DNA of 64,000 nucleotides from assembly GCA_037043015.1 (NCBI GenBank), contig CM073324.1:17450597-17514596 (forward strand), read 5' to 3'. Shown here one piece after another: positions 23,126 through 44,440 of the stretch. Position 1 is the first letter of the stretch. The number at the start of each line of letters is the position of its first letter. A model generated the notes under the pieces. It did no database searches and was not told the origin of the DNA. It worked only from the letters and a program-made list of their open reading frames with translations. Source of the stretch: Bryum argenteum. Its lineage: Eukaryota > Streptophyta > Bryopsida > Bryales > Bryaceae. Both the position numbers and the translations under genes were made by a program.

Positions 23126-23760
23126 AAAAAATAACGTTGGTTTTGTCAATTTTTGACATGATAGGGTAAATATTTCTAACCGCATTTCAAAAACAACAAT
23201 GTTTTTGAAAGGCCGTTCAGAAATATTCTCCTTTGACTATGTCCAAAGGTCAAAATCCATAAAGAATGTGTGATATTATGGAAATTTTGGTAATATTACA
23301 GAAATTATTTGATATCACACAATACATGTGTGATATTAATACACATGCCATTTTGCAGGCAGGTAATATGACACGTTTAGAATGCCTGCAAAATGCCTCA
23401 TAGGGGATTTGGCAAAATGGCACCAATGCAGTATTTAACTAAATATGGACTTTGGCGTCAATTCTGGACTGAAACATGGTAAGTGGGATGGGGCGATCTC
23501 CCGATTTCTTCCAATAAATAGGACTAATGACATGAAAATTCACGAGATCAAACTGAAAATACAATCCATACCAAGAAATAGTGGAGGAAAAGAAATAGTG
23601 GAGGAAAAGAAATAGTGGAGGTACATAGGAATGATACCAATGTGACACAGAGTGGCCTTAAACTATTATCTTAGCGGTTTCGTCTTAAGATTAATAAGAA
23701 CAAATATGTTTCCACAAAATCTAATCAGGTTGTACTAAGTATTGAACAAAAATAAAGCTT
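23101..23760. repeat. dispersed ATATCAC-rich repeat plus 20-bp tandem
   Basis: The segment from ~23120 to ~23440 (GTGTGATATTATGGAAATTTT, CATTTTGCAGG) is a diverged copy of sequence at ~49770-50070 and, inverted, ~59240-59460. At 23574-23622 a 20-bp unit AAGAAATAGTGGAGGAA occurs about three times. No gene is seen. Confidence 0.55.
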
Positions 23761-23779
23761 GACAACATTCGAAGGGAAG

Positions 23780-26110
23780 ATCAGTGGCCACATGAATCGG
23801 GGTCGACCATAGAATCGGGGATCGCCCCATCGCGCCCGTGTCCATTCTAATCAAGTTCTAAAGATAAAAGATTCAAAGGCAAGTAACGTTTTGAAAATTA
23901 GAAAAGTAACCTTCCATTTTCTCAAACCTTTGGACCAACAAAGGATGAATATTCTTTGTGATGGTATGGTGAACAACCTAAGAAGTGTAATTAGCGTATT
24001 ACGAACTAATAAAATGTCACACGAACTTCATAGCAAATTCCAAGAAGAACTCGAGAATGCGCGATAGCCATACAATCGGGGATCGCCCCATCGCCGTCCG
24101 TGTCCATTGTAATAGAAGTTGTAGAGTTAAAGATATCAAAGGCAAGTAACGAATCTAGGTTAAGGTATTGAGCAAAAGGTGCATCAAGTAAGAATCTCTA
24201 TTTCTTCCCCGAATTTCAAGCAATAAATTATACAAAGGATCCCCACGTGAAGCCGTCAAAAGCTACATATTGTTAGAATGACTGCCATGAGAGTCAAGTA
24301 CACCTATACAAAAGAACTCAAGTGCGGCATAGCCTCTCACAAGAGTCGGCGACGGAATTTTCCATCCATCTCAGAGTTCAAGAGGAATTGACTAACACTA
24401 TCATAAGAACGAAGAGGCATAATAAAGGGAAGCAACGCTTTGTAGAAATATTTGGAATGACGTTCCGAGAATTTGGAAACTCGAGCTCCCCCAACCAGGA
24501 CCTTGGAAAATAGCAGCATGAATCACCATTCCGCCTATTCCTCCATTGGCAGTCATCCACCATCAATATACGATCCGGACGACAAACTTTCCAAGTCCTG
24601 GAACCTTTCATTAGCCGCTTCATGAACTTCTCGCAGTAGGGGTACCAGTCTGGATTATGGCATTTATTTCGTCCATAAACAAATAATAGCTGCGAGGAAA
24701 TTTCCTGCGGCAGCAAAAATTCAATAACATGTCGAAGTCGACCAGCAGGCATCGATGACCAAATGCCAACATAAAAATGCTTCATGAGATTCCGGAGAAA
24801 ACCATGCAATCCGGGTCGCCGACGGATTCTCGTTGCGTCAAACTCCGCAGGGTTGATGCCCATGTAATCCTCAAAGCAAAGTACACCGTTGACAGAAAAC
24901 ACAATCACGTTCTGCAATAGCCGATACAAGCGTTAACGTGATATCCAACTCATGGTAAAGAGTTACAATAGCATATCGGGAGATCGCCCGATCCGCTGTG
25001 ACGAAATAGTTCATAGCAACTTATTTCTTAACTTCAGTAATAAAAAAAAGAATAGTTGTGCTGGTGATATGTGAAGCGTCAACATAAAAGTAATTCATGA
25101 AAATCCCCTTCCACTACTGTAACCAAATACTAATACCTTTTCAGTAAGCAATGAATGATAATCAATGTTATGGTATGGTCGACAACCTAGCAAGAGAAAT
25201 TAAAAGAAACATACTTATAAAATGTCACACGAACTTGATAGCGAAGTCCGAGTTAGAATCAGCCTGAATGACCAATAGCCATACCTATCGGGGGATCGCC
25301 CTATCGACGTCCATGTCCAATCTAACTACTGTTGAAGAGCATAATGAATAAAAGGCAAGTAAAAATGTCAACATTAGAAAAGGATCCTTTCATTTACTAA
25401 TACGTTTGCGATAGTCTTTGGACAAAAATTAATGTTATAGTATTGTCATCAACCTCACGGAGTGTAATTAGAAGAAACATAATTATTAAGTATGACAGGG
25501 CGAGTTGATAGCGAAGTCGAAGGAGGAATCAGTTGAACGACCAATAGCCATACCAATCGGGGATCGCCCCATCGACGTCCATGTCCATTCTAACTATCAT
25601 TGAAAAGTTTAATGAGTCAAAGGCAAGTAACGTATCCAAAATTAGAAAAGAATCCATTCATTTACTAATACGTATGTACTAGGTCATGGACAAAAATTAA
25701 TGTTATGGAACGGTCGTCAACCTAAGAAGTGTAATTAGAAGAAACATACTTATTAAGTATCACACGCAGTTTGATAGCCAAGTCCAAGGAGAAATCAGGA
25801 TGAACGACCAATAGCCATACCTATCGGAGGATCGCCCTATCGGGGGATCGCCCCATGTCCATGTCCATTCTAACTACTGATCAAACGTTTAATGAATCAG
25901 AGGCTAGTATTGAATCACAAAACTACAAAAGTATTCATTCATTTACTAAAACCTTCGCACTAGGCAGTGGATGAAAATTAATGTTATGGTATGGTCAACC
26001 TACGAAGTGTAATGATAAGAAACATACTAATTAACAATTACAACAACTTATACAAGTACTGGTCCACGAGAGAGAGCAGTGATCATATCGGGGGATCGCC
26101 CGATGGCCGT
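23780..26110 (+). repeat. ~270-bp satellite, one palindrome per unit
   Basis: The marker AATGTTATGG recurs near 25165, 25430, 25698 and 25979 (spacing about 267-280), with less complete units near 23.8-24.2 kb. Unit order is AATGTTATGG, a CAACCTAAGAAGTGTAATTAG block, CACACGAACTTGATAGC, GACCAATAGCCATACC, the GATC palindrome, then CGTCCATGTCCATTCTAAC and CAAAGGCAAGTAACG. The array is interrupted by the exon at 24378-24911. A rearranged inverted copy lies at 44190-44440. Confidence 0.85.
24378..24911 (-). pseudogene. FCP1/NIF-like HAD domain exon lacking the catalytic Asp
   Basis: After a good acceptor (CTATTGCAG, exon from 24911) the frame reads NVIVFSVNGVLCFEDY. This aligns with the DLNGVLCY motif of the neighbouring copy at 26225-26881, but the nucleophile Asp is Ser. 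Later parts of the fold persist: RPGLHGFLRNLM, VGIWSSMPAGRL (motif II region) and RILMVDDCQW (Asp-rich motif III). In HAD/FCP1 enzymes the first Asp forms the phospho-intermediate, so this copy should be catalytically dead. The frame runs to a stop at 24378, possibly beyond the original exon end. It may be a 3' exon of a dead duplicate or a binding-only relative. No upstream exons were found; the flanks are satellite units. Confidence 0.6.
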
Positions 26111-26224
26111 AGTTCAAAAGATTCTAAGTTCATTGGTCAAAATACGAAAAAACACATTCTAAAACATAAAAATGAAAAAGAAAGATAAGAGGCCGTAGAG
26201 ACTTTAATCACTCCATCGCACTAC

Positions 26225-26881
26225 CTACGTCGTCTGCACTCCAAAATCCTCACTTGAACATTCTTGTCTCGATGGCATCTCCTGCCACCGGAAGCGGATT
26301 GTTTGGTGACATAATCTTGAACAGATAGACTGAGTCAAAAAGGCCTTGTAGCCAAGGCCGTAAACGGAGTCTAAGAAGATATCGACTTGATCACCATGCC
26401 AAGATGGTGGGTGGATCATGGTATGATTGGCGTTGAGCGAAGACTTCAACGGAGAATCATCCACTAATACAATACGATCGGGAGTATTTAAAGACAAACG
26501 CCACCGCACAACGGTTAGATCCTTGAGATACAACGTCTTGTTATTATCGAGCACGTTTTTTGAATAACGAACAATCGGCTTGAGAAAGTGACGGCTCTGT
26601 GCGTTGAAGGAGCAACCCTTCGTGACCACATTCACCATATTGGCGACATTCTTCGAGGTAGCGGAACTCCATATCACAATTTGAGCCCGGCTTCTTACAA
26701 AATTCAACAACTCCGCACAACCAGGTCGAGGATAAACAATCCTCTGCTTACCCTGTTCGAAAGGGCTTCTATAACAGAGGACCCCATTCAAGTCAAACAC
26801 TACAATGTATCGTGGTGGCGGTACCTTTGTTTTTTCTTTTGGGAGGCTCGGCCCGATAACTCCTTTCGGGAGTCTCTCTGC
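26225..26881 (-). CDS. FCP1/NIF-like HAD phosphatase domain (3' exon)
   Basis: An exon after acceptor TTGATTTCTGCAG encodes about 218 residues ending at a TGA (26225-26227). The frame reads YIVVFDLNGVLCYRSP (HAD motif I; Asp nucleophile present, second Asp replaced by Asn as in some plant relatives), RPGCAELLNFVRSRAQIVIWSSAT (motif II) and DRIVLVDDSPLKS (motif III), then PPSWHGDQVD. Such domains dephosphorylate phosphoserine/threonine proteins, and the parent family includes RNA polymerase II CTD phosphatases; the substrate here is unknown. It lies downstream of, and on the same strand as, the exons at 27.2-30.4 kb. It could be the last exon of that gene or a separate gene. Splice phase across 27.2-26.9 kb could not be resolved. 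Confidence 0.65.
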   Translation of the reverse strand, partial: AERLPKGVIGPSLPKEKTKVPPPRYIVVFDLNGVLCYRSPFEQGKQRIVYPRPGCAELLNFVRSRAQIVIWSSATSKNVANMVNVVTKGCSFNAQSRHFLKPIVRYSKNVLDNNKTLYLKDLTVVRWRLSLNTPDRIVLVDDSPLKSSLNANHTMIHPPSWHGDQVDIFLDSVYGLGYKAFLTQSICSRLCHQTIRFRWQEMPSRQECSSEDFGVQTT

Positions 26882-27194
26882 AGAAATCAATATTGGAATC
26901 GCGATTAATCGGTATGGTAAAGGAAGAAGTCAAACCATGAGCAAGAACGATGAGGAAATTAACTACGTACCCTTGGGATCATTACACTGTACCACCTGTT
27001 CCACAGGACTAACCGCACTTGGTGCAGCACCTGAGATCGGGCGACCGCCCGATAAGGTGTTTACATCGACTAAGTGCTCCCCCTGGGAACCAATAATTAT
27101 CAATACCAAATTAACATTGAAACTTGGAATTCAAAGAGTAGGCATAAAGTTAAACACCATGTGCAAGAAATTGCAAGGACTTGCTCAAAAATAC

Positions 27195-27534
27195 CTCGAA
27201 ATTAGTGGTAAAGTGTCATGTCGGGACTTAATGGACTTTTCGTTGTGTCGCGAGGCTTTTGATACCGGAATATTTTTCACCTTCGTCCTCCCTCCTTCCT
27301 CCCGCCCCTCAGCTGTCAACAAGTCCCTGACATTCGCCTTCCGCTTATTTGAAGGCTCTAACTCCTGCGTTACTAACAAAGCTTTCCCGCGAGGTTCTTC
27401 ACGAATAGCCAAGGCGTCGAAAACAATCTCCGTTGAACGCTCCACCGCCTCAACTCCCGCAGATGACTCCTCCATTGCAGTATCTTCAACTTCCGCGGAA
27501 ACGGCCTTGTCCCTAGGTACTATCTGAAACGCCC
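27195..27534 (-). CDS. charged linker exon (putative)
   Basis: The frame from I-V-P-R-D-K-A at 27534, after acceptor GGGCGTTTCAG, to a donor AG|GTATTT near 27195 encodes about 110 Glu/Lys-rich residues (EDTAMEESSAGVEAVER...). It lies between the Ser/Ala-rich exon at 27520-28239 and the FCP1-like exon. Its reading phase differs from the preceding exon's terminal frame, so either a donor inside that exon is used or a frameshift separates them. No domain recognised. Confidence 0.4.
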
Positions 27535-28239
27535 GCTAAAGGAATGTCCCCGAGTACGAACTCCGTCAGGATGCTCACTTGCACGATCGCGAGCTGGACT
27601 CATTCTCTCGAGATCAGTCATGGAGTCCACCATGCATGAGTCCAGAGGTTCTACTTCGCCGGCACCCGCATTTGCAGCATCAATGATGGGGCGATCGCCC
27701 GATAGCCCAATTAAAGCTAGTGCTGTGTCTGGAACTGATCCATCCAATGAATTCTCTTGAATGGACGCCTCAACGTCCGCATTAGCTTCGTTAAGGGGTG
27801 ACTCTGCCATCGCATCTTCTTGCGACTGTGAAGCATCCTGTCTGCTTGATGATACAACTTGGTTAGAACCGATGCCGGGGATAGCTTCCGATCGCAGCGG
27901 AGTAGAACGATCGATGGGATTCTCAGCTCTTTGGGGTTCGTCAGTGTCGGACTTCTGAGGTGAAGAATTCCGTCGCTGTTCAACTCGAGTCACCTGTATT
28001 AAGGTCGATGTAGTGGGGTTAGCTACCATGTCACGGACTGGATGCACTTGTTGCATGTCATATGCAAGAGTACGCAACGGCAGGTGCCTTGTATGAACTC
28101 GCTCCGCATACTTTCTAGCTATAGAGATAGAATCCCTATAGCCTGATCCAGGCAACTGAGCCCACGAATTTTCATCAGTGAGATCAGCGTTAGACATAGA
28201 AAGTTTCCCGACATACATATTAGCATGGAACAGTACTTC
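27520..28239 (-). CDS. exon of methyltransferase-like gene, disordered region
   Basis: Starts after acceptor CCATGCAG (28240-28247) in phase 0 with the exon at 28344-28775 (frame E-V-L-F-H-A-N-M-Y-V-G-K-L-S) and stays open for about 239 codons to a TAG at 27520. The first ~75 residues look ordered; the rest is Ser/Asp/Glu/Ala-rich and probably disordered. A GATC palindrome (27686-27703) lies inside the frame and is translated as part of L-S-G-D-R-P-I. Function unknown. Confidence 0.55.
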   Translation of the reverse strand, partial: EVLFHANMYVGKLSMSNADLTDENSWAQLPGSGYRDSISIARKYAERVHTRHLPLRTLAYDMQQVHPVRDMVANPTTSTLIQVTRVEQRRNSSPQKSDTDEPQRAENPIDRSTPLRSEAIPGIGSNQVVSSSRQDASQSQEDAMAESPLNEANADVEASIQENSLDGSVPDTALALIGLSGDRPIIDAANAGAGEVEPLDSCMVDSMTDLERMSPARDRASEHPDGVRTRGHSFSGRFR

Positions 28240-28343
28240 CTGCATGGGTCACAGAACAAGTAGAGTCGGCAAAAGTTAATTAAGGATGAATTGATAGAGT
28301 GCCATATATCTCTTTACAAAAAGCTTAGAAATGTTTATCATAC

Positions 28344-28775
28344 CAGGCTCGAATCCTCGGCAGCATGAGTTCGAGCTTCGTCATTGCCTAGTTGAAACAG
28401 TGCCCTGGCCGCAGATGTAGTTGTTCCCGCACTGGACTGTGCATGGGGTGCGAGGGATGCAGAATCAACGTCCATAGCGGCGTTGCGTATGCTATCGTCA
28501 GCCCCGTCAATGCTATCGCCAGTGTTGGGGCTTACAAGATCGACATCGATGTTGCGACGGGAAGCTGATCTAGTGTTATGCATCGAAGTTGTGGAAGGGT
28601 CCGTTGAACGCGAAGAAGAACTACACGATGATTTGTCGAAAGAAGAGATGACGGCGCGCAGATTCTCGAAATTGACATCTTTGGTGATGACAGCCCACAT
28701 TCGTTCGGTTCGACTTTTGGCATCGTCCAGCTTAGAATCGTTCTCAACGAATTCCAAGACCGTGGCGTTGTTCCT
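28344..28775 (-). CDS. exon of methyltransferase-like gene, end of motif I and linker
   Basis: Bounded by acceptor CATGCGCAG and donor CTG|GTATGA, 144 codons, phase 0 at both ends. Joined to the upstream exon it completes a segment in which F-T-N-V-G-L is followed by R-N-N-A-T-V-L-E-F-V-E-N-D. This spacing resembles the AdoMet-binding motif I (FxGxGN...A...V..E.D) of beta-type DNA N4/N6 methyltransferases. The remainder is Ser/Thr/Asp-rich linker. Ser-rich low complexity makes homology calls hard here. Confidence 0.55.
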
Positions 28776-28828
28776 CTGCGCATGACAGAGAGCGTGACAT
28801 AAGAAGATTAGTGAAATCCTCTACAAGG

Positions 28829-28979
28829 ATGGGGCGATCCCCGATGCGCACGACGTAGAGTGATAGAAGAAGGTTAGTGAAATTCACTACACGATGGGGC
28901 GATCCCCGATGTGGATGACGAGTAGAGAGACAAAATAGAGGTAGTGAAATCCTCTGAACGGATGGGGCGATCCCCCGAT
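28829..28979. repeat. ~66-bp tandem triplicate with palindromes in an intron
   Basis: Three adjacent units (marker TAGTGAAATYCWCT followed by GATGGGGCGATCCCC) at 28810-28980 each end in a shortened form of the GATC palindrome (28829-28845, 28894-28910, 28962-28979). They fall in the intron between exons 28344-28775 and 29038-30417. Confidence 0.8.
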
Positions 28980-29037
28980 AAACTACCAGGTTTACATCAC
29001 AGAGACACTACTGCCACTGAAGAACTTGATAACTTAC

Positions 29038-30417
29038 CAGTCCGACGTTAGTAAAATTTGGTCCTCCGTGCAGATTGACAAGAAGTATATCCTGCCTAAG
29101 AAAGGAGCTGAACATTGCCAAGGCAGTGCTCAAATTCAAAGATGCAGTTCCTTGAATTCGCCATTCGCGGTCGACGGTGTCATCGGCAAACTGAACTGCT
29201 GAGTAGAGGGCCGACAGCCTCTCCCGAGATCCCCTCTCCCGCTCGAAGTAGAAATCAAAGTCTGAACGTCTTCCACGAGTGGTTCTTCCAAAGATGAAAA
29301 CGATATATACGAGAACCTGGGAACCGATGTCACATGGAGGAAATTCATCATCAGGTTGTGGAAGGTAGTGAACCACATGATAATCCCATGGTGATGAGCT
29401 CGATCTTCTCTTCCGCACCTCTATCTCCTTAGCAATTTGTGACATTCCGTGCACGTCCGTAATAATGATTGCAGGTGACTGAATATCGATTTTTGCGTTT
29501 TCCTTCACCTCGCATGCGTCGAAAATGCCTGAAAGTCTTCTGTCTTCAAGCAATCTTGGCTTCGACTTTCCATTCTCTGCAGTTGTGAAGCAGAAACAGA
29601 GGAAGAGGAATTTTACTTCCTCGTTGTTGTCCATTATCCAGTCAAGAACCTCGCCATTCTCTTTCATCGTGGCACTGAGGTTCCCTTTAAACCAGTCAAA
29701 TGTGGCGCATTTGTACTTCTTGGAAAACGAATCATCGACTTCGAGTTCGAGTCGGTCAGTTGCCCCCTCGCCATAGGACTCGTAGACGCTCTTGATATGT
29801 TCGGGGAGGTCGCCTTCCTTGGGATTCTTCACTAAGTTGTCGAGTCGGCGATTAAAGTAGAGCTCACCCTCCGGGAGTTTCGACCGCGAAAGTAGTGCCA
29901 TCATAGTGTCGCGAGTATAACCCCGTTCCCTAGCGAGATCATCCCATTCAAGCGCTGTATAAGGAACGTATTCTGCCTTCTTGCTAGGAAGCGGCTTATC
30001 CTTAAAGAGATTCATAAGCTCGTCCTTCATGACTCGGATCCTCTTCTCCTGGTTACAAAAATCCACCATCGACATCAAAGTTGGAGGTACGCTTTTCGAG
30101 TGTGTACTCTTGACGCAGATTTTCTTCTCCTGGATATAAGTGGCAACAACCGCGACATCCTCATTCCGCATATTGTGCAGAATCTTTAAGTCGTTTTCAA
30201 CAAAATTCTTCCTGCCGCTAAACCCTTGCTCATGCGGAGGTACTACCTTTCCCCATTGGTCAGGAAGTCTTCCTGCTAACCACTCGTTCTCAATCGAAAC
30301 CCACTTGTCGAAATGATCGTTCTCGAGGTAAAGCAACGGAAGCCTACCGTCACCTGCATTCTTGGATTTCACTGTTTTTCCTGCGAATATCAGCTTCACC
30401 TTTGGAAGAAACTCATT
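29038..30417 (-). CDS. large exon, DNA N4/N6-methyltransferase-like protein
   Basis: 460 codons open between acceptor TTTCTTTTGTGCAG and donor CTG|GTAAGT, beginning N-E-F-L-P-K-V-K-L-I-F. The C-terminal third resembles a permuted (motif IV before motif I) beta-class DNA methyltransferase. SPAIIITDVHG stands where a DPPY motif is expected. HYLPQ, FGRTTRGRRSDFDF and SALYSAVQFADD follow, and the exon closes with ILLVNLHGGPNFTNVG, a motif-I-like loop continued by the next exon. If so, the catalytic DPPY tetrad is absent, and activity is doubtful. The N-terminal 250 residues are unrecognised. An ATG exists upstream at 30477 inside a GATC palindrome, but it precedes the acceptor and is probably intronic. 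The family call is an inference from motif spacing only. Confidence 0.55.
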
Positions 30418-30679
30418 CTGCACAAAAGAAACAAATCGTTGTGAGCAAGCCTGTTTGGCATGGGTGGGTCGCCCCATGCAATACCCTACACACCAGGGTA
30501 CTCAGAAATCACATGGGGCGATCGCCCGATGAGTTCATCAAAGTCAAATAAATATTCTCAGATACCATTTTGAATCCTCTAATCAATTTGTACATCGGGC
30601 GATCGCCCGATGGTCTATATGAAAACCGAAGCTCAGATCTACCACCTTCGAATATGAACATAATAAGGTCATCTCACCT

Positions 30680-31977
30680 TAAATTGAGAGGAATGCACGC
30701 GTCCACATAAAGCGGCATCGGCTTTCCCATATCGTTCCACGCTACTCGGCGTTCGCGAGTGTTGCGCGAAAACGTTTGTTCCGTTCGCTCGCCCGCAACA
30801 TCTTGATTTAAAACACGGGAGAGGTAAAGTAGCTTCGAATCGACTCTCGGGGCACCAGGTGGGATGATGCTAAACTTTTCCAAAGAATCCTCTCTTATAG
30901 TCGAAAGTCGCTCCTTATTCGCGAGAACCTTCGGTGTGAGTCGCTCATCGTGTCTTTGCCACCAATGATATAGTAGTGAGTAGCGACTTGAATGCCCCTT
31001 CTTCTCGGGCTTCGTTGTGAAGTATATCGGCTTGTTGTTCGGAATCCCTTAAGTGGCAAAACGATCACCGAGCTCTAACCATGCTCATGTCCGCACGATT
31101 TCTACCGCCATCGCAATGCGATCAACCCCGTCTTGAACCAGGCCTCGGTACACAATCTTCCCGGGAGGAGCGCGGTGAAGGTGGTCGTAGTGCACATGGA
31201 GCTCCTTGCCGTCTGCACCCTTCCATGATTCCATCCCGACAAGATCGTCTGAATGATGAATATACGAGGGGAGAACTCGGTATCGTATAACTTTCGATTT
31301 CTTCCCTCAACTCGGGAGTTAACCGCTTACTATCTTCGGTAGAAATTCACCGCATCTGCGAGTGATAGTTTTTTGCCGCTTTCTACTTTGTCCGTTGTAC
31401 CCTTTTTTTGGACGTTTCGGCTTTATCGGTGACTTCCGCTTCTTGCTCGCGGATGCCGTTGCCGGCGGGTCCTCCCAACAACAAAGCAGATTCGTCTAGG
31501 GCATCGATGAGAAGCTCCCACGACTTCTCAATATCCTCCACCGTAAGTCGTGGGTCGTCGTATATTTCAAACCCCCTCTCGATGTGATGCCGATAACGCC
31601 GAGTCTAACTTCCCAGCGTCAACACTCGACCCATATCGTCGGTTATTCTTCTCCTTCCCGAGTGGCGGCTCTTCAATTATTAGTACAACTCTGCAGACCC
31701 ATTATTTCGTGGCACCTTCATTCCAAGAACTTGGACACCTCTTTTTGTACTCTTAAACTTCCCCCTCCCGCCTAATACCGGGACGATACGGGCTCGCTCG
31801 TCTGGTTTCTTTTGCCAAATCAACCCCCAGGCTTCTAGTTTAGGATCAGCTGTGAAAGTCATTCCGACAACGGTTCCGTCATCCAACTCGTAGAATTCTT
31901 CACGAAGCCAGGTATTGACATATCGGGATAGGCGTTTTGGCTGAAGTTCCGCAGGTGCCTCTGTATAATTTGGATGA
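30680..31977 (-). pseudogene. decayed 5' exons of the methyltransferase-like gene
   Basis: From acceptor GATTCCTGCAG (exon from 31977) the frames read coherently, but in pieces. The first is HPNYTEAPAELQPKRLSRYV...TVVGMTFTADPKLEAWGLIW, ending at a TAA at ~31680. A shifted frame holds DDPRLTVEDIEKSWELLIDA, and another holds LPSYIHHSDDLVGMESWKG (~31260). It continues through VHYDHLHRAPPGKIVYRGLV, a TGA (~31083), a TAA (~31050), then IPNNKPIYFTTKPEKKGHSS and LYLSRVLNQDVAGERTEQTF to donor AAG|GTGAGA at ~30679. At least three frameshifts and two in-frame stops make this part non-functional. The junction to the 30417 exon is also out of phase by one base. Confidence 0.7.
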
Positions 31978-32061
31978 CTGCAGGAATCAACTTGAGCTGT
32001 CAGTTTCTCACAGTGGACATTCTGATATACTCTAACAAACTGACTGCAACTAACACTTATG

Positions 32062-32168
32062 ATGGGGGGATCGCCCCATCCAATAGGACATATCGGGCGA
32101 TCGCCCCATTGGCATATCAGCATCGTGTGGGCCCCCATCAACAAGGACACATCGGGCGATCGCCCCAT
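32062..32168. repeat. cluster of GATC palindromes in an intron or flank
   Basis: Palindromes at 32062-32079, 32092-32109 and 32151-32168, with a degenerate copy at 32122-32138, spaced about 30 bases apart. This is the same spacing as the array that begins at 32323. Confidence 0.85.
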
Positions 32169-32322
32169 CTGATCACCACTTCTATGATTCGAAGGGCTGT
32201 GCGTATAATACACAACGATTATTAAGTCTTCCTACTTAACTACAAGCATAATCTAACGAAATGAATATTGAGATACGCCATTTTTGGAACTAAGTTCTTA
32301 GTCCTCGTTAGAACTAAGCATC

Positions 32323-32660
32323 ATCGAGCGATCGCTCCATCTACTGACCAGCATCGGGCGATCGCCCCATCCACTTACCAGCATCAGGTTAGAGCCTCAT
32401 GCTACCAACGGGTTAGGAGCATGGGGCGATCGCCCCATCTGCTTAGCAGCATGGGGCGATCGCCCCATCTACTCAGCAGCATGGGGCGATCGCCCCATCT
32501 GCTTAGCAGCATCGGGCGATCGCCCCATCTGCTCAGCAGATCGGGCGATGGCCCCATCTCGCCAAAGCAAGACGGCGATCGCCCCATCTGCCAAAGCAGA
32601 CATGGGGCGATCGCCCCATCTGCTTAGCAGCATCGGGCGATCGCCCCATCTGCTTGGCAT
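32323..32660. repeat. 30-bp minisatellite of alternating palindromes
   Basis: Eleven to twelve units of about 30 bp. Each joins the 18-bp palindrome ATSGGGCGATCGCCCCAT to a 12-bp spacer CTGCTTAGCAGC, itself an inverted repeat (CTGCT-T-AGCAG). Starts are 32323, 32353, 32383, 32421, 32451, 32481, 32511, 32540, 32571, 32602 and 32632. The array has a stop-free frame on both strands, so the predicted ORFs across it (MGRSPD/GDRPM repeats) are simply translations of the repeat. Confidence 0.92.
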
Positions 32661-33265: not shown

Positions 33266-33343
33266 CTTGATGACGCAAAAGGCTGCCTTCAAAATGCTGC
33301 ACCAAGCGTCGAACTCCGATTGCACCGAGATGTTCGCCGCCAC
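33266..33343 (-). pseudogene. possible first exon with lost start codon
   Basis: On the minus strand GTG at 33343-33341 begins 26 codons (V-A-A-N-I-S-V-Q-S-E-F-D-A-W-C-S...) up to a donor ATCAAG|GTAAAT. The context suggests a former ATG-GCG start of the decayed gene downstream at 31.98 kb. This is an inference; no expression signal is visible, and no phase-compatible second exon was identified. Confidence 0.3.
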
Positions 33344-34400: not shown

Positions 34401-34533
34401 TTAGTAATTACAGACTAATTACACAATTTAGTGTAAGTTTATTTTATTTTCAAAAATTGAACTACTTTGTTATTAGTATTCTTAAAATTACAATGTCACA
34501 TTTTTTGCTTAAAATACGAGACAAAATCTAAAT

Positions 34534-34824: not shown

Positions 34825-35129
34825 AGGTGTTCATTCTTTCGAATACACCCAAAATACACCATATTCTACTAGCCGCTGAGAACAAGCGCTTAGACCTCTA
34901 GGGCTAAACATTCCTACATGGATAAGATAATTACCATGTTCAAAACTTGTGTATTGATACATGAGGGAATAGTGTAATTTGTTTATGAGAATACTCCACC
35001 TCAAAGGCAACAACATGATTCATGACAATGCTCTTATATATTCTTGTACGGATTCCAAGCGTTGTGAGCAAATTGGTATTTGCAACTTCTAGATTCTATT
35101 TTTACCGTAAATCTCGATTTAAATATGTA

Positions 35130-37130
35130 GGACTCACGTAATAACTCGTACTAGTTACTAGTATTTACCTCGAAAATTGTATTAATCATGCAGTGTGCCA
35201 CTATTTACCTAGAAATTCGTATTAATCATCATGAGAATATACCGGGTAACTTGTATATATCATGCAAAGATTTACCTAGTAACTCGTTTTAATCATGCAC
35301 TATTTACCTAGTTGTTCGTATTATTTAGTCATAGTGTATAACCAATCGAAAACATTATCATGCTAGAATTCATGAGAATATTCTCATATATTTTTGTACT
35401 GATTGCATGCATTGTCACCAAATTAGTATTTGCAACTTGTAGATTCTAATTATACTTTGTAACTTGTTTTAAATAATTATGCACGATTCACCTAGTAACT
35501 CGTACTAGTTATGCGATTTACCTAGGAACTCGTATTAATCATTCCGTATGCCACTATTTACCTAGTTATCGTATTTATCATGTAGTATATACCTCGTTAC
35601 TCGTATAAATCATGCAATATATACCCGTAATTCGTATAAATGATGCACTAATGAATCGCTAGTAACTTGCGAAAAGATTTGCAACTTGTAGATTCTATAT
35701 GAAATGTGTAACTCGAACGTTAAAATATGTACGATTTACGTTACAATTCATACTAGTCATAGAGATTTACCTAGTACCGCGTATTAATTTTGCAATTTGC
35801 CACTATTTACCTAGTAACTCGTATTTATCGAGCACTATATACCTGGTAAGTCGTATTAATCATGGAGTATATACATGGTCACTCGTACATATCATGCAAG
35901 ATTTACCTAGCAACTCGTACTAGGCATGCGGTATTGACCTAATAACTCGTATTAATCATGCACTATATACCGGTAACTCGTATATATCATGCAAAGATTT
36001 ACCTAGTAACGCGTTATAATCATGCTCTATGTACCTAGTTGTTCGTATAAGTCATCTTTGTATAACCAATCGAGAACATTATGCTAGAATTCATGAGAAT
36101 ATTCTCATATATTTTTGTACGGATTGAATGCGTTTTACAAAAAAATTAGTATTTGCAACTTGTAGATTCTAATTTCATCACAGAACTCGTTTTAAATATG
36201 CACGATTTACGTTACAATTCATACTAGTCATGGAGTATTTACCTAGTACCGCGTATTAATCGTGCAATTTGCCACTATTTACCTAGTAACTCGTATTTAT
36301 CGAGCAGTATATACCTGGTAAGTCGTATTAATCATGGAGTATATACCTGGTCACTCGTACATATCATGCAGTATTTACCTAGCAACTCGTACTAGGCATG
36401 CAGTATTGACCTAATAACTCTTATTAATCATGCACTTTATACCTGGTAACTCGTATATATCATGCAGTATTTACCTAGTTACGCGTTCTAATCATGCTCT
36501 ATGTACCTAGTTGTTCGTATAAGTCATGCTGTATAACGAATCGAGAACATTATACTAGAATTCATGAGAATATTCTCATATATTTTTGTACGGATTGCAT
36601 GCGTTGTCAGCAAATTAGTATTTGCAACTATTAGATTCTAATTTCACTGTGTAACTCGTTTTAAATATGCACGATTTACGTAATAATTCATACTAGTCAT
36701 GGAGTATTTACCTAGTACCGCGTATTAATCGTGCAATCTGCCACTATTTACCTAGTAACTCGTATTTATCGAGCAGTATATACCTGGTAAGTCGTATTAA
36801 TCATGGAGTATATACCTGGTCACTCGTACATATCATGCAGTATTTAACTATTTACCTAGTAACTCGTACTAGGCATGCAGTATTGACCTAATAACTCGTA
36901 TTAATCATGCACTTTATACATGGTAACTCGTATATATCATGCAGTATAAAAATAGAATTTACAAGTTGCTAATACCAATTATCTTAAGTTACAGTCATGG
37001 AGTATTTTCCTAGTAACTTGTATTAATCATGCACTTTATACTTGGTTACTCGTGCATTTAATGCAGTATTTACCTAGTAACTCGTATTAATTATGCATTA
37101 TGATCTTGTATTTTTATCCGGTATCTTTGT
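35130..37130. repeat. higher-order minisatellite array (AACTCGTATTAATCATGCA)
   Basis: About 2 kb of ~32-36 bp units with core ACCTAGTAACTCGTATTAAT and variable CATGCA/GTATTTACC linkers. They are organised into larger ~460-700 bp repeats marked by ATTCATGAGAATATTCTCAT at about 35370, 36085 and 36560. The larger units share order and variants, showing duplication of blocks. No coding potential. Confidence 0.88.
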
Positions 37131-38300
37131 ATAACTAAATGAAAACATCATCTTATGATTCTTGGCAATTATACTCTTATATATTTTTGCACGTTAATAT
37201 TTGTTTTATTAGGTAACCATTGAAACATAATTTTAGGTGGAATTTTGAAGCATAAACGGTATTTCAAAAATTCATATTCAAGTTCGATTGTTAGATTTGT
37301 TTCGTGACATACTTAGCTAAATGAATTACTTCTACTAGTACCTAGGTGAACTACTAGTACCTAGGTGCAATGAATTTGAGGAGTTGACATATGAGTCATG
37401 GTACTAGACGTACTCGTGCATGACACTCATGAGGTGAACCGAAGTGCGTTTGACCGCGACCGCCATGTTTGGTAAATATGCTTTTTATTGTATCTCCCAA
37501 TGTCCTAGCCAATAACAACGGCTCCCTCCTTTTCTAAAGACATCCTCCCTCCCGCTAGAATTCGCATCACTCTTTCAAAACTTCAACTTCTCTTCTTCAT
37601 GCTCTTCTTCTTCATTCAAGTTTCTAGTGCTAGTTTCTAGTGCTCTTGCTGCTCGTGTTGGTGCTCTTGCTGCTCGTGTTGGTGCTCTTGCTGCTCGTGT
37701 TGGTGCTCTTTCTAGTGATAGTTTCTAGTGCTCTTCTTTGCTCGTGGTGCTCTTTCTAGTGATAGTTTCTAGTGCTCTTCTTTGCTCGTGGTGTTTGGTG
37801 CGCTTGCTACTCGTGTTGTTCTTCACGGTGCTACTCGTGCTCTTTTTCCTCACGGTCTTCTTTGGACGTTAGTTCCTCTTCCTCCTCGCCTCCCGCAATC
37901 CACGACCTATTGTTGCCGCTGAGTTTCGACATTCATATACAATAAGGTGTGAATTACTCCTTCATCCCATTAAATCGGTTTCAAATTCTTGAATACTTTG
38001 CAATGAAATTAACACTGCTTCTAGCCGCACCGCTAAATGAATTTGATAGCTTCCTAAAGTATTGCAAATCTGGATTTGGAGCGCTAGTAGTAGTCCAATT
38101 GTATTCAACTTATTATAGGCCTCCTAATCCAACAAAATTTCAATTATCATGGTAGGATTTATCGATTTATAATACATCCTCCTCGGTATGGGAATAGTCA
38201 ATCAACAACACATTGTAATGCAAATCGCATGTTTTCATATATAGAGTGTTATAACGTCAACGGTAGAGAGGGGTGATGACGTGTGCTTGTACGAATCCGT
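37131..38300. other. intergenic with CT-rich tandem repeats
   Basis: At ~37640-37710 a 21-bp unit (TGCTCGTGTTGGTGCTCTTGC) is repeated about three times, and at ~37700-37790 a 44-bp unit (CTTTCTAGTGATAGTTTCTA...) twice. The CT-rich stretch 37540-37900 resembles plant 5'UTR sequence and could have belonged to the decayed gene downstream, but no intact promoter element or ORF is supported. Confidence 0.5.
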
Positions 38301-38817
38301 ACTATAGTACACGTCATCGGGCGATCGCCCGATAGTACTTCTCTAAGTTCTTAAGATATTGAACATTATGAGAAAGCCTCTAAGGCATGGGGCGGTCGCC
38401 CCATGCGGTGTCCTAGTCTTTAAAAACTCTAAATTGGCATGGGGCGATCGCTTAGATGAACTAATCGAATCAAATAATCATTAAATGATTCCTTGCGAGA
38501 CTATTGAATCAATGGAGGCTTATAATTGTGTATGTTCAATATAAGATATCGTGGGACCCGTCTATTCAAATTGTGCGGGAAGAGAGAAGGTCGGAGAACT
38601 AGCACATCGGGCGACCCCCCGATGCTCGTATAAAATAAAGCTTGCGGCCGAGGATCGGGCGATCGCCCCATGATCGCCTCGGTTTGCATCGAGGCGGCGT
38701 TCGTCGGCTATTTCTTCTTCGTCGTGGTTCCGACTTGCAAGAGCAGCGTCGGGCGATCGCCCGATAAGTTGAGTTCTAAATCATGGCTTCGGGAGTGGCT
38801 CGACCACGACTCGGCTT

Positions 38818-41450
38818 TTGACATTCCCTGCGGTGAAGTCCAGGCTCCGCAATGGTATGGAGGTCACACTTCTATATCCTGGTATTGGTGCGGTCGGTTC
38901 CGGCGTTCTCATCGGCCTTTCAGCCCGGGGGGGATATGGGAAGGAGTTTGTTTCCCGCATGATGATCGAAGACTATGTTCTTCTTCGCCTATCACGGATA
39001 TCTTGCCGGGCTTCGATGATCTGCCATTACAACCTCGGCAGACTTGGGATTCACGTGGTCGGCCATGCCTTGAATAAGACCGTTCTTTGGAAAGCTCTTG
39101 ACTTGGTAATATCATCGGGCGATCCCCGATCGATGAGGATGTCCCGGACGGGGATTACCGCTTCCGTCCAAGATCGGAGTGGGTCGGGCATGAAATTCGA
39201 AGAAGGGCGAGAATGGTCGGGTTGATGCGTCGGAAGAATAATTTGTTGCTTTCCTTCGGATCATTTCCGGACACTACTTTAGGCGAAGGCTTCATAGGGG
39301 TCACTTTGCTCGCAAGTTATGCGCGGTGACGTGATGACGATTATGACGCATCGGTGGCCCATTTCAGATTGCTTTTTTGCTTTCGGTGGGCCGGACTCGG
39401 ATGACACTCTGCTGCACTTTGCTTCAATTCCTGAAGTTGTCGACCCTGACGCGTATCTAGGAGGAGTTCAGAAAGCTCCGTATCGATTCGTCAACAGAAA
39501 GCGCTGTGAAGATCCAAAGGTATCTCTGTATACTAAGAAGACAGAAGACTCGAGATTCGCCAGTCGGTGCTTAGAAGTGTTGCGGTTTTAGATGCCGCCG
39601 ATGTTCCCCTGGGCGATACTCGGGTGTCGGGGCGGTTGTTTTATCTGAAGAGTTATGAGGATCGTCGTGAGTATGCCATTGCGGCTGGAGGACATATGCA
39701 TGCAATGGAGGGGAGCATGAGAGTGAAGTATATGACGCTTATGGGATATGAGTGCCGTGCTACCGCTTGGTATAAAATTCATGGTATTGCCAAGTCTACA
39801 TTCCATACGTACATGGAGAAGTACAATGAAGGCGTCCTTTCAGGACAGCATGGAAATAAAGGATGCAAGCGGCCCCGGATCGGGACAATCCAAGCCATGG
39901 GCACAATTGCTGCTATTGTGGCAGAGAACGCGGATCAAATGCCTAACCAGATGCGTGGAACTGGAAAGCACGGGCGGATGGATACTTTGAAGTATCTGCC
40001 GTCTGGAAACAATTGGACTCGAGTGCATGCTGATGCAAATGAGGTACGATTTGCAGTGTAGTTGTGTATTGCGGTGTTTATTGTTGTGTCAGCTTTTGCA
40101 TATGGGTATCGGGCGGTCCCCCGATGCTTGTATTGAAGTGCGTCCATTCCTTTCACTTCGTTCGTATATAAACTTACTTATGCACTTTGATTACTAGACA
40201 AATGCGTCTTACGGCCTTCCTTTGTCGGCCCGATCTGCTATAAGCCGGATCAAGAAAGGCATGTTCAACAACGTTGCCATCAAACCAAAAGGGAAGCGGT
40301 TTAGCCAAATGTACCGAATGCGACACTCTGCAGCAGTTTCTTCTCAGGTGTCATAAGGGCAGCCCCGAGTATGTGTCGTTTCTGAAGCAACGAACTTCGC
40401 ATTTGAATCATCAAGCGTCATGCCGTCGACTCTACGCATCTTGGCGAGAAGAATCAAAGCGAAATCCGCAAGAATATCTTTGCGTTATTCACGACAAAAT
40501 GGATACAAAAAGACAGACTCTTCCAAGGATGCGGACTACAACGAAGGCGACCTCGGGTTTGGGACGACTTCCCATGAACGTTTCTTCGGATGGTTGCTCA
40601 TGGCCATTGCGATGGCGCGTATGCGCATTACTCCCGGATTGCTGGCCGTGCGATTCCAACGCCACCATTTCTTCTCTTGCGAGATTATTCAGCGACTTTT
40701 GGAGCCACCGCTCCGAGAGTCACGGGAGCTTTTTCCCCATCCCCAAAGAAACTCCCCTGTTGAAGCTTTGCTACGGAAAGTCCAGTGCATTGATGCTTTG
40801 ACGGTGATGGAACCAAACAAATGTCTTGGCCGTTCTCCGCTACCCCCAACTTGTATCTTCAATTGGATAATTCCGCGAAGGACAACAAGAACCGATTCTG
40901 ATGGCCTTCCTATCTTTGCTTACGGCAAAGGGGTGTTCAAGGAAATCCAGGTGGGATTTCTTCTTGTGGGACATACTCATGAGGATATCGATCGTATTTC
41001 AGCCATCTATCAAAGGCACTCAAGAACAGGAATACTTTCAAATCTTGGCGGACTGATGAAGGCATTTATGCGATCCCAGGAATTGTCTTTCATGCCGAGT
41101 TTGTGCGGAGATTGCGGACTTCAAGTCCTACATCAAGGGCTACCAATGCGATGGGGCAACTCGATTAATTGGCCTTGGGGAAATGCACCTCTTCAAGTTC
41201 TTTGTTGACTCGATGGTTGGCGGTCATGAGATGGAAGAAATCGGTGGATACGGAGTGGCAACCGCAAAACAAGCCAAAGAATTCGACTTTGGAAAGAGGA
41301 CGAATACGGGCGTCCATCACTACCGACCGTCCGTTAAATCCGGTCCCTTTCAAGCATATGTGGGGCGGCGAAGTTCCATCCGCAACGGGAATCGGGAGAA
41401 GGCAAGAGAGTCTGCGGCAAAAAAGCTACGGAAAGGCGGACTTTCATGAT
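38818..41450 (+). pseudogene. DUF7869-like gene, decayed
   Basis: Fragments in several frames match, in order, a family I recognise from non-seed plants and animals (DUF7869-like, function unknown, possibly transposon-related). They are an unidentified 5' exon (38818-39225), then CRATAWYKIHGIAKSTFH and NKGCKRPRIGTIQAMGTIAA (39567-40041). Donor GAG|GTACGA and acceptor TACTAG (~40196) follow, then CTECDTLQQ, NHQASCRRLYASWREESK, EYLCVIHDKMD (40274-40520), LYLQLDNSAKDNKNRF followed by TGA (40851-40901), VGFLLVGHTHEDID (~40960) and GLGEMHLFKFFVDS (~41180). Adjacent motifs lie in different frames and are broken by stops, so the gene is dead. A GATC palindrome (40108) sits in its intron. Confidence 0.75.
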
Positions 41451-41985
41451 ACTCGGAATCCGTAAGTACATTGAGTCTTCGGAGAGTGGTCGTAGAAGGT
41501 GCTCGACGTTTCTTTCTTTGCATTCGAACCGTATGTGGAATACTGGTCTCGAGTTCTCCATGAGCTTGGATGCCTCTTCCTCCAACACCGTCTCGTCTTG
41601 TGGAGGGCTTTTGGCCCCTACATGATTGGCGCGGGCCGTTGGTCACCATCCCACGCTTGACTCTAGTACCATTCGACTCAACTCAAAGACGAAGAACCCG
41701 AGGCATCTGCGGGGCCAAAGAAACGAACGGCCCGAAGAGCGATTTAATCCTTGGCGGCGATTGCCCCTCTCTCGTGGTACTTCTCGGACACTGAAAACCC
41801 TATAGTATGTCCGGTATGGGTGGGGAAGGGTCATGTCTTCGATGTGTAGGGATGAAGAGGATGAGAACTATGGAAAGTTCCTTATCCAAAGATTGGGAGC
41901 CCCCGAATGCTTTGCACGAGACATGGCTAAGAAGTATGAGAATTGTTGGTCACTAAGTGGGTTGTCGAGAACCGCCGTCCCGAAT
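41450..41985. other. no gene assigned; 3' remnants of the DUF7869-like locus
   Basis: Higher GC than the surrounding repeats, with several overlapping short frames on both strands and no motif. Possibly decayed coding sequence continuing from the DUF7869-like pseudogene. Confidence 0.35.
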
Positions 41986-42890
41986 GGATCGATGTTGGTC
42001 TTTGTTTTGTGCGCTTCGTTTTCAAGGATCGCCAATCCGAAGTCACGTACTATTCCCATAAGGGATAAAGCGCGGCGTTGGTCAACTTGACGAGCGAATA
42101 TTGCGATCCGTAAAGCGGATTTGCATGACAGGCAAGTGACCGGTGCATCATCGGGGATCGCCCGATGGGCATTTTTCAATCTTAGTACGACCTTAGATGT
42201 CGAGATGTTGTGGACTTCGGTTCACTTTGGGAGGTTCCTAGTGGTTTTAGTTCGGATTTTGCCGCTGCGTAAAGAAGATGTTTAGGGTCCTCTACTTTGT
42301 CATCTTACCTTATTACATTTTTTGGAGAATGTAAATTTTCATGAGATTTTATTTTATGAAATATTATATGTCTCACTCGTGACGTCTTTGAGGTGTGCAT
42401 GTGTCGCTAGGAAATGTTCTCTGAGATGTTATAGACGGAATGAATTTTCTTTGAGGTGCTTCTATTTCTAGGATAGCAAATCCAAATGTCACGTTCTCTG
42501 CTTGGAAAGCGATAATGCTCGTTCGTTGATTAACTTGACGACTACGATCATTGTTCATCCGTATATCGGATTCTCCATGACAAGATGCAAGTGAGTGGTG
42601 CATCATCGGGGATCGCCCGATGGGCGCTTTTTTATTTTTACAACGACTTGAGACCCAACATGTTGTGGACTTTGGTTCATTCTTGGAGGTTCATATTGGT
42701 TTAGGTTTGGGTTTTTCCAATTTGCTTAAACAAGATGTTCGGTGTCCTCATCTTTTTGGCGATCGATATTACATACTTTGGGGCATGTAAATTTATCCTT
42801 TAACGATTTATTGATGAAATTTTATATTATTCATTTCAATGTTCTCTAGCTTGTTCGAGCTCATGTGTAATTGTTTTCGCTTTAAAATGT
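41985..42890 (+). repeat. ~455-bp tandem duplication
   Basis: Two diverged units share GCATCATCGGGGATCGCCCG (palindromes at 42150 and 42605, spacing 455), TGTTGTGGACTTYGGTTCA, GGATNGCNAATCCRAAGTCAC-type text and TCAACTTGACGA. The palindrome occupies the same place in both units, so it pre-dates the duplication. Confidence 0.8.
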
Positions 42891-42928
42891 AATGTGAGAT
42901 GTCTTAGACAAATGGAGTTTTCTTCGAG

Positions 42929-43825
42929 GTGTTGCGGCTGGATCAAAGTGTGCGATACTACACGATGCTGGGATATAAATTGGGCCATAGGATCGGGCGG
43001 TCGCCCGATTATAATTGGATCGATGCAAGAATGTTTTCTCTGCGCAAAGGCTTGAGAGCGGCGCTACGGTCTCACAAGAGACCTAAAGTGCTCTTGGATC
43101 GGTCGATCGCCCGATATTTCTTCTTGCTGCTCGATCTAATAATCCTGATAGTTTACTTCCAATTGACAAATGATGAAGTTATAGGACAATTTCCCCATGA
43201 GCACGTAGTGCCTGCGAGATGTAGCATTTAGTCAGTCCTCCTCTTTCTACTATGAGTTCACTCAACTAAATGTTTAACTTTGTTTTGTTTTGACTTTGAC
43301 AGGAGTTCGTTCTTGGATCTCTCCTGGGCCTTCCCGTTTGTGGATTTCGTTTTGCAACCAGTGTACATAGATTGTGCCTGGGATGAGGGGTTCGTATCGG
43401 ACCTCAACTTTGACTCGTTGCAGCTCATCATGAATGTTGCCAAGGCATGCTCCCATCTTCGGTGGTACCTACACAGCCGAGTGGAATATTTCGCTGTGAA
43501 GTTGGCATTCTGGCATGGAGCACAATTGCCGCCGAACTCGTGGGTTTTGCCATCAGAGGAAGTCGTCACACAACTGCGACCCATATGGTGTGACATGAAG
43601 AAGCTGCAGTGTGGGCCACACGCAGCTTTTCATCGATATTTATACCTTTACAAGCCGTTGAGGGAGATGACCCCACATGAGCTCATGTGTCTCCGGAGAA
43701 GTTCTGGCGTCGAGTTCGATTCTTGTGGTTTATTGAATCATCTTAAGTTACAGTTATTTTGTCGTGCATCTCATCTTTCAACCAGTATCGGTAGATCGCC
43801 CGATGTTAATTGCTTACTGCACTAA
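42929..43825 (+). pseudogene. unrecognised coding remnant with in-frame palindromes
   Basis: A frame at 43303-43825 follows acceptor TTTGACTTTGACAG and encodes about 174 residues (RSSFLDLSWAFPFVDFVLQP, then ...VEYFAVKLAFWHGAQLPPNSW). It reads directly through a GATC palindrome as S-I-G-R-S-P-D before a TAA. The preceding frame at 42929-43231 contains two more palindromes, one read as H-R-I-G-R-S-P-D. The composition looks protein-like, but no family is recognised. It may be the 3' part of the DUF7869-like locus or a separate gene; intactness is unknown. Confidence 0.4.
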
Positions 43826-44440
43826 TGTATCGATAATGGACTAAATTTTCATTTCGGGTCGGATGATTGAATCATGATGGGATTTTCTGATTTCCTGTAG
43901 CGGTTGTTTTATGAATTTCGTATTGTTATACATAGTTAATATTTCGTATAATATCGGTTCTCTTGATCGGGGCATCGCCCCATGTTTAAGCTGAACGTTT
44001 CGTTCTTAGTCTGAGCAATTTTTTTATGTTCCTCTATCTGATCCTCTGGAAAGGCTGAGTGGATGCCCCCATGTTAAATTTTGTCTTCTTTGCTCTAGGT
44101 ATCCCGTGATGTTTTGTTGGCGACGTGGAGCTCCACAGATGTTTTGAGGCATTTATTCCTGAATCCCGCTATTAGAATCGACTCTTTGCAGTAAGCATTA
44201 AGTGAAAATTAATGTTATGGTATCGTCAACAACCGAACAAGTGAAATATTAAGCATTATATAGGTAACTACGTGTCTGCTTATATAAGGATGCTTTTATA
44301 AATTTAAGTAACGTTACTTGCCTTTGAATCTTCAAACTTTAGAACCTAAGTTAGAATGGTAACGGACGTCGATGGGGCGATCCCCCGATGGGAATGGGTA
44401 TTGGTCAGTCGCTATGAAGTTCGTACGTGAAATAAGCATA
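43826..44440. other. palindrome-bearing flank and inverted satellite copy
   Basis: Palindromes at 43966 and 44372. From ~44190 a rearranged copy of the 23.8-26.1 kb satellite: ATTAATGTTATGGTATCGTC in direct sense, then CGTTACTTGCCTTTGAATC and CTATGAAGTTCGTACGTGA in reverse sense. No gene is seen. Confidence 0.65.

Follow-up and report, generated by a model that had tools for sequence, protein, structure and literature searches.

A terminal-inverted-repeat transposon in the window

The 64-kb window, by which we mean the whole stretch of DNA that was analysed, contains a 21-kb block of palindromes, and this block is a single DNA transposon (W hereafter). It has inverted ends of the form ATGC...GCAT and is flanked by a target-site duplication, the two features by which a terminal-inverted-repeat DNA transposon is recognized (Table 1). 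Target duplications of 4 bp were found in all three copies in which both ends were read, namely ACCA in W, AAGT in the further copy C7, and ACAT in D1, an element with a second type of palindrome (type B, see below). C11, C1a, C1b, and C1c are further copies, S1 and S2 form a sister subfamily, and L031 is a locus with palindromes of a third type (type C). Besides two ORFs with phosphatase domains and a 497-aa ORF, the element carries a gene for a DUF7869 transposase, a domain which may be linked to Sola-type transposases (4-bp duplications). The transposase ORFs comprise 646 aa in S1 and 645 aa in D1. In the sister subfamily a 72-bp array occupies the place matching W 30460..30611, and palindromes upstream of the S1 transposase gene are paired at 48 bp.

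Table 1. Features of the window transposon (positions in the window).
Feature	Position	Strand	Evidence or remark
Complete terminal-inverted-repeat DNA transposon (21,423 bp), holding every palindrome of the window	23426..44848		BLAST alignment to C7 and C11 begins at 23426; ends ATGCAGTATTTAAC...GTTAAATAACGCAT
Target-site duplication ACCA (4 bp), left copy	23422..23425		ACCA flanks both ends
Target-site duplication ACCA (4 bp), right copy	44849..44852		ACCA flanks both ends
Left terminal inverted repeat ATGCAGTATTTAACTAAATATGGAC	23426..23450	+	Related termini in S1/S2 and D1
Right terminal inverted repeat	44824..44848	-	Paired with left inverted repeat
Terminal palindrome, 62 nt from left end; equal offset in S1/S2	23488..23505		Palindrome scan
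ORF, NIF/FCP1-like phosphatase domain (NIF2)	24378..24932	-	PF03031 E 3.3e-7; 53% identical to D1 NIF2
Left subterminal 268-bp tandem repeat, palindromes at 25287, 25555, 25823, 25839	25160..26034		
ORF, NIF/FCP1-like phosphatase domain (NIF1)	26225..26929	-	PF03031 E 3.7e-16
497-aa ORF, without significant Pfam or PDB match	29008..30501	-	
Three palindromes, two between 497-aa ORF and upstream coding part (probable intron)	30460..30611		
"IIGG" region, coding, upstream of the 497-aa ORF and probably in one gene with it; several broken frames in W	30713..31973	-	Conserved interval
Palindrome cluster, mostly 30-bp units, upstream of leftward gene	32062..32649		C7 and C11 differ in unit number
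Palindrome cluster upstream of rightward (transposase) gene	38316..38765		Palindrome scan
Transposase gene region (DUF7869), frame broken in W	38848..42105	+	Conserved intervals; PF25273 E 4.8e-8 for ORF 40357-41205
Right subterminal palindromes; last one (3 mismatches) ends 67 nt from right end	42992..44781		

Palindromes in the window and in the genome

Scanning the window for the 18-letter palindrome gave 40 matches with at most 3 mismatches, 19 of them exact, where dinucleotide shuffles lead one to expect 0.03. All lie between 23,488 and 44,781 and none elsewhere in the window, which bears out the original prediction of a repeated 18-bp palindrome restricted to one block of about 21 kb. 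Its figure of about 45 copies is also reached once the one-base-short palindromes missed by the ungapped scan (about 28829, 28894, 39114, 42150, and 42605) are added. Two further points have to be amended. The spacing, described as roughly every 450 bases, is uneven, with 13 of the 40 matches crowded into 32,062-32,649, most of them belonging to a 30-bp tandem array, and no palindrome at all from 32,650 to 38,315. The central base was thought to be optional; since seven of the eight one-base-short palindromes are full length in C7 and/or C11, its absence is a one-base loss in a run of G or C (decay or sequencing error) and no variant form. The short palindrome at 23813 is one base short in W, C7, and C11 alike.

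Three palindrome types were counted genome-wide, as had been suggested for the first of them. Type A, ATSGGGSGATCSCCCSAT, occurs at 625 places in its gapped form and type C, TRTCGGCYGSCRGCCGAYA, at 1,360, both against 0 for the reversed-pattern control; type B, ATMGRHAGATCTDYCKAT, occurs at 19 places against 2. All 19 type B places belong to a single element of 25,978 bp with terminal repeats at its ends, and 10 of them fall outside the stretch from which the motif was derived. Among the elements read, none combines exact sites of different types: eight type A copies, D1, and six type C loci each contain exact sites of their own type only. Both type A and type B include a DUF7869 gene, the type C locus L031 has a fragment of a homologous transposase, and one DUF7869 locus carries neither palindromes nor any other element gene within the 5.5 kb read.

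Among the matches listed, the first 62 distinct type A places are all on C1 below 7.2 Mb. Fifty-six of them are within about 34 kb of a match to the 497-aa ORF, including six that sit 22-33 kb off and so exceed one uninterrupted element length. The other six are found 0.6-5.3 kb inward of C1:1596053, where a string matches the right end of W exactly and probably marks an element end, although the terminal-repeat pattern is so short that searches with it stay at chance level (254 and 265 matches vs 312 and 253 in the control) and single matches are weak evidence. A dispersal independent of mobile elements, as is known for HIP1, the cyanobacterial octamer GCGATCGC found genome-wide, is thus not what these places display. 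The same octamer forms the centre of some type A sites, a likeness that, according to the original prediction, might be chance. It does look coincidental, because the sites are tied to a single plant transposon family whose relatives have palindromes with other centres, lacking GCGATCGC.

Placement of the sites

The palindromes avoid exons. Of 220 sites, only 6 are located in coding DNA that is conserved across motif types, against 56.0 expected by circular shift, a total that leaves out C7 and S2 as near-duplicates of W and S1; these two have 0 of 39 (6.2 expected) and 0 of 27 (4.8 expected) sites in coding DNA. Taken element by element, four of the eight tests gave p above 0.03, two of these above 0.15. 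This cross-motif-type test replaced a first one based on stop-to-stop ORFs of near relatives, which run through introns and which gave 5/35 for W (13.3 expected), 1/36 for S1 (14.6), and 0/25 for D1 (8.2), with the opposite direction at L029 (31/40, 21.4 expected) and L030 (9/17, 6.9 expected).

Short transposase-binding sites are repeated subterminally near both ends in CACTA (TnpA), Mutator, and Hermes elements, and the present palindromes might similarly be bound only by the DUF7869 transposase, at subterminal and internal positions of a transposition complex, the remainder being overflow. The sites do occur near both ends, and the distance from the left end to the outermost one is exactly 62 nt in seven type A copies (W, C7, C11, C1a, C1c, S1, and S2), thus in two subfamilies whose 497-aa proteins are 53% identical; the last one in W is 67 nt from the right end. 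The transposase itself, or a fragment of it, accompanies all three types. However, most palindromes are far from the element ends, in introns and promoters, and together they occupy non-coding DNA along the entire element; the transposase is well conserved (61%) whereas the site changes. The DUF7869 locus devoid of palindromes also speaks against this explanation, which we regard as rather unlikely. The 62-nt offset is not shared by type B: D1 has its outermost left site at 100 nt, a departure that counts against the self-recognition reading given below.

It is less probable still that host regulatory factors acting at an enhancer, silencer, insulator, or replication origin bind sites which the element has recruited. 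Such factors would suit sites that are non-coding and lie in probable introns or upstream of genes, but every group of elements has a site of its own, the type A and type C controls are 0, and the first 62 type A places among the matches listed are in or near element copies.

Arrays, arms, and substitution

Tandem arrays of palindromes, with spacings of 29, 30, 69, 72, and 268 bp, have been built independently. The unit number of the 30-bp array differs among W, C7, and C11, S1 has spacings of 72 and 48 bp, and W and S1 share the palindrome motif despite their differing array units and a 497-aa protein that has diverged as noted above.

Substitutions were compared between sites and other non-coding DNA with the 30-bp array and AT-rich repeats dropped and C1b excluded. 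Counting only W sites with at most 2 mismatches, which favours conservation, sites hold fewer substitutions in the youngest pairs: 2 of 412 site positions differ between W and C7 vs 232 of 9,107 elsewhere (binomial 0.002), and 0 of 212 vs 98 of 4,735 between W and C11 (binomial 0.012); the low W-C7 figure may in part be ascertainment. Older copies preserve their sites hardly better than the rest of the non-coding DNA (C1a, 12/202 vs 283/3,803, binomial 0.26; C1c, 9/202 vs 298/3,804, binomial 0.04). Indels, counted apart, amount to 0 to 6% in sites, like the remainder. The coding DNA of W and C7 is without constraint (215/8,051 substitutions, 2.7%), which sits badly with selection sustained since their split. 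The fading of constraint in old copies, its absence from W-C7 coding DNA, and the many sites in arrays would all be expected of functionless tandem repeats that drift passively and happen to include a palindrome. Nevertheless diverged subfamilies have amplified the same motif in unrelated units, single dispersed sites persist, and exons are avoided, and we therefore consider passive drift very improbable.

The two arms of type A sites vary independently. Across 183 sites, which come from six related copies, the arms are complementary in 70 at positions 3/16 (79.8 by chance) and in 89 at positions 7/12 (104.6 by chance), and in W alone in 18 of 40 (16.2) and 22 of 40 (24.1), respectively. This fits two half-sites that are read separately, as for a dimeric protein. 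A role as RNA hairpins or DNA cruciforms would agree with the near-perfect inverted repeats and with the covariation seen at the GATC/TATA centre of type B (22/27 vs 15.7), but the remaining variable arm positions lack covariation and several pairs are complementary below chance, leaving this role hardly credible.

The original prediction offered two interpretations, of which the protein or methylation site survives and the self-multiplying palindrome finds no support. In an alignment of W, C7, and C11, where C11 is truncated and the right half compares W with C7 only, no palindrome was cleanly gained or lost outside the 30-bp array; the copies differ only by point changes, by one base in runs, and in array units. 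Yeast mitochondrial GC clusters and bacterial palindromic elements are likewise short, dispersed, and palindromic, yet with no sign of independent mobility in these three copies and with other palindromes in related elements, a self-inserting unit of that kind is the least plausible explanation of all.

A candidate binding protein

The most likely binder of the palindromes is the protein encoded by the fast-evolving 497-aa ORF together with its upstream IIGG part. Between S1 and D1 the 497 part is 27% identical and the IIGG part 31%, against 61% for the transposase, and the S1 homologue of the 497-aa protein is 24% identical to that of L031. NIF1 diverges about as fast (32% identity between W and D1), thus divergence speed alone cannot single out the binder. 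Pfam, PDB sequence, and fold searches found no known DNA-binding domain in the candidate; both AlphaFold models, built on shallow alignments, are poor (mean pLDDT 43.9 and 34.1), and Foldseek with the 497 model returned no match at E<=0.001. A ParB-like reading of the IIGGQHT region, conceived by eye, was dropped, with no support from Pfam, from a genome search with the ParB N-terminal domain PF02195 (a single match at C4:16718650, which is outside the window, with E 1.49; control matches in 11 of 14 genomes), or from comparison with KorB, the sole ParB protein compared (probability 0.2 and 0.4 percent).

Self-recognition by transposons

The closest parallel is found in the VANDAL elements of Arabidopsis, which have a Mutator-like (MURA) transposase and a Mutator target duplication. 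VANDAL family motifs are short, lie in introns, intergenic, and terminal non-coding parts, are tandem-amplified, and differ between related families; a separate protein of the element serves them, and the motif of VANC21 is 9 nt long (YAGTATTAY) and arrayed in a single orientation (PMC5735166, PMC10398659). Similarly, the present element has a family-specific short motif enriched in its non-coding parts, tandem-amplified motifs that differ between related copies, and a candidate for a separate protein devoted to the motifs. It differs in the two-fold palindrome of 18-19 bp, compared with the one-orientation 9-nt motif reported there for VANC21, in having a DUF7869 transposase and 4-bp target duplication in place of MURA, and in its two NIF phosphatases. 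VANC-type proteins bind their motif and remove DNA methylation, and the candidate protein of the present element may do likewise. Among the literature searched, VANDAL/VANC is the one known transposon self-defence that works through sequence-specific sites throughout its own non-coding DNA. Judged by titles and the starts of abstracts, none of the matches listed describes the present elements or concerns DUF7869, and none, by title, treats NIF together with a transposase.

It looks as if each element uses its palindromes to recognize its own DNA. With a probability of roughly 0.5, they are dispersed binding sites of a dimeric DNA-binding protein which the transposon encodes and which marks its own element, most likely against silencing; we infer the binding, the identity of the binder, and the anti-silencing role from the patterns described above. 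The protein would bind palindromes across the element and coat only the non-coding DNA of its own kind, at ends, promoters, and introns, and the element so marked would most likely be kept free of silencing, by analogy with VANC and VANDAL. The end-proximal site may also aid assembly of the transposase complex, and site and protein would change together as families diverge. With sites masked, palindrome-bearing elements have whole-element CpG observed/expected ratios of 0.80-1.06 and TpG/CpA of 1.02-1.12. The corresponding values are 0.67-0.69 and 1.16-1.19 for the flanks of the element in the window, and 0.62 and 1.28 for the DUF7869 locus without palindromes. Escape of active lineages from methylation would lead one to expect the higher CpG; young age may also account for it.

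We tentatively propose, at somewhat less than even odds, that a DUF7869 clade has a second, independently evolved anti-silencing system of self-recognition in plant transposons, in which its own dimeric protein and the dispersed 18-19-bp palindrome evolve as lock and key, with at least three mutually distinct specificities in this one genome, possibly together with CTD-type phosphatases of the element acting on host transcription. If true, such self-defence would be known from two kinds of transposon, here with palindromic sites and three specificities in one genome, which would suggest a general strategy. It would also offer natural pairs of protein and site in which to follow how a DNA-binding protein evolves in step with dozens of target sites.

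The palindrome block is a transposon

The block that carries the palindromes is a transposon (W, Table). The alignments of its young copies on contigs C7 and C11 to the window begin at its left end, and 4-bp duplications were found in all three copies with both ends read (W ACCA, C7 AAGT, and ACAT in D1, a distant relative). W contains several broken reading frames. Its 497-aa ORF has 98 genome matches (each fragment counted separately), 61 of them by hand count on contig C1 (44.1 Mb, 17% of the genome), which may, as a guess, be a TE-rich sex chromosome. At least 151 matches to DUF7869 (PF25273) were found in the host genome, with 150 of 1,798 candidates scored, and PF25273 was detected in none of 14 control genomes.

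Features of the element (window coordinates unless a locus is named)
Feature	Position	Strand	Remark
W element	23,426-44,848		ATGC...GCAT inverted ends
Two NIF/FCP1-type phosphatases (NIF1, NIF2)		minus	PF03031
497-aa ORF	29008-30501	minus	
DUF7869 transposase region		plus	
IIGGQHT segment (IIGG)	30713-31973; L020:7842-9182; L026:4904-6316		with homologues

The original prediction of about 45 copies in a single block is borne out: ATSGGGSGATCSCCCSAT has 40 window matches at ≤3 mismatches, all within 23,488-44,781 and 19 of them exact (shuffles: 0.03), and one-base-short copies bring the number to about 45. The even spacing of ~450 bases was not recovered; the sites are clustered instead, with 13 of 40 at 32,062-32,649 and none from 32,650 to 38,315. 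In W, C7, C11, the older C1 copies C1a and C1c, and the sister subfamily S1 and S2, 62 nt separate the left end from the start of the first site (1-3 mismatches); in D1 the distance is 100 nt. AT-rich tandem arrays (33579-37101; units include 16, 22, 32, 38, 60, 96 and 472 bp) occupy the element centre between the divergent genes.

An ORF with a B3 DNA-binding domain (46379-46978; PF02362, E 2.9e-10) lies directly right of the element, a large inverted repeat (350-nt arms, 89%) lies at 20365-21982, and GDPD-like ORFs were recognised by eye (Pfam E 0.13). The B3 domain and these ORFs both point to a land-plant genome.

Each element group has its own palindrome

S1 and S2 (53% identity) share the type A site of W, with variants such as ATCGGTCGATCGCCCCAT and site spacings of 72, 48 and 39/45 bp. 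D1 (27-29% identity) has a distinct 18-bp site, type B (e.g., ATAGGAAGATCTTTCGAT); over the genome (258.8 Mb in 25 contigs) it has 19 exact sites vs. 2 in the reversed control, all 19 at C1:24290827-24316007 within the D1 element (C1:24290235-24316212) and 10 outside the stretch used for motif discovery. Type C, a 19-bp palindrome (TRTCGGCYGSCRGCCGAYA; 1,360 genome-wide vs. 0 in the control), marks loci L029-L033, plus L025 with 5 sites, at 17-41 sites per 10 kb (≤3 mismatches; shuffled mean ≤0.05). All three patterns were counted in W, C7, C11, C1a-c, S1, S2, D1, L025, L028-L034 and the rest of the window. Among these, exact type A sites occur only in W, C7, C11, C1a-c, S1, S2 and L028, type B only in D1, and type C only in L025 and L029-L033, while L034 and the window outside W have no exact site of any type; at 3 mismatches, pattern B is also passed by 0-5 type A sites per locus. 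A 21-bp satellite inside the D1 span (L026:1-2630; C1:24304000-24306630) contains a near-palindrome, AAGTTCGTACTT, unlike the 18-bp site of D1.

The groups, at loci chosen non-randomly from hit lists, have genes in common. Homologues of both NIFs are present in D1, together with the IIGG and 497 ORFs and a transposase ORF of 645 aa. Among type C loci, 497 was aligned from L029-L032 and IIGG from L029 and L031-L033; L033 has two Pfam matches to NIF (one above and one below cut-off), and L031 has a transposase fragment of 111 aa (53% to S1). One DUF7869 locus without the other element genes was read, over 5.5 kb. A DUF4218 protein of CACTA type (L025:270-1172; PF13960, E 7.4e-31) lies beside a type C locus.

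Placement and conservation of the sites

Only 6 of 220 sites fall in coding DNA, defined as stretches conserved between motif types, vs. 56.0 expected from circular shifts (W, S1, D1, L029-L033; per-element p 0.0065 to 0.34), and 4 of the 6 are L029 sites in one long merged match. Pooled half-sites are ATSGGGSGA (A), ATMGRAAGA (B) and TRTCGGCYG (C). Variable arm positions showed no covariation between arms, except the type B central GATC/TATA step (22/27 vs. 15.7).

Substitutions between W and C7 number 2/412 in sites, 232/9,107 in other non-coding and 215/8,051 in coding DNA; the same classes give 0/212, 98/4,735 and 94/4,969 for C11, 12/202, 283/3,803 and 331/4,839 for C1a, and 9/202, 298/3,804 and 340/4,967 for C1c. 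The young copies thus show sparing of the sites, the old ones less of it; coding DNA, however, is hardly spared in any of these comparisons, a warning that the evidence for selection is weak.

Once the sites are masked, the elements that bear palindromes show CpG observed/expected of 0.80-1.06 and TpG/CpA of 1.02-1.12; the values are 0.67-0.69 and 1.16-1.19 in the window flanks, 0.78 and 1.22 in an LTR element adjoining D1, and 0.62 and 1.28 in the DUF7869 locus without palindromes. These values are compatible either with active lineages being less methylated or with the elements being young.

Candidate proteins and likeness to VANDAL/VANC

Between S1 and D1, identity is 61% for the transposase (646 aligned columns), 31% for IIGG and 27% for 497; between W and D1 it is 53% for NIF2 and 32% for NIF1. 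In these comparisons the palindrome changes together with a fast gene. IIGG/497 is the best likeness to the VANC pattern, but NIF1 diverges about as fast and the argument is indirect. A ParB/sulfiredoxin-box likeness of the IIGGQHT segment, seen by eye, found no support in profile tests.

VANC21 is reported to occupy YAGTATTAY motifs located in introns, between genes and in terminal regions, VANC6 has motifs different from those of VANC21, and motif turnover proceeds via tandem repeats (Hosaka et al., 2017, PMC5735166; 2023 paper, PMC10398659). The moss elements resemble VANDAL/VANC in motif placement and turnover; their transposase, their target duplication and the symmetry of their sites set them apart. 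By analogy, we infer that the palindrome elements would work like VANDAL/VANC, but are not members of it.
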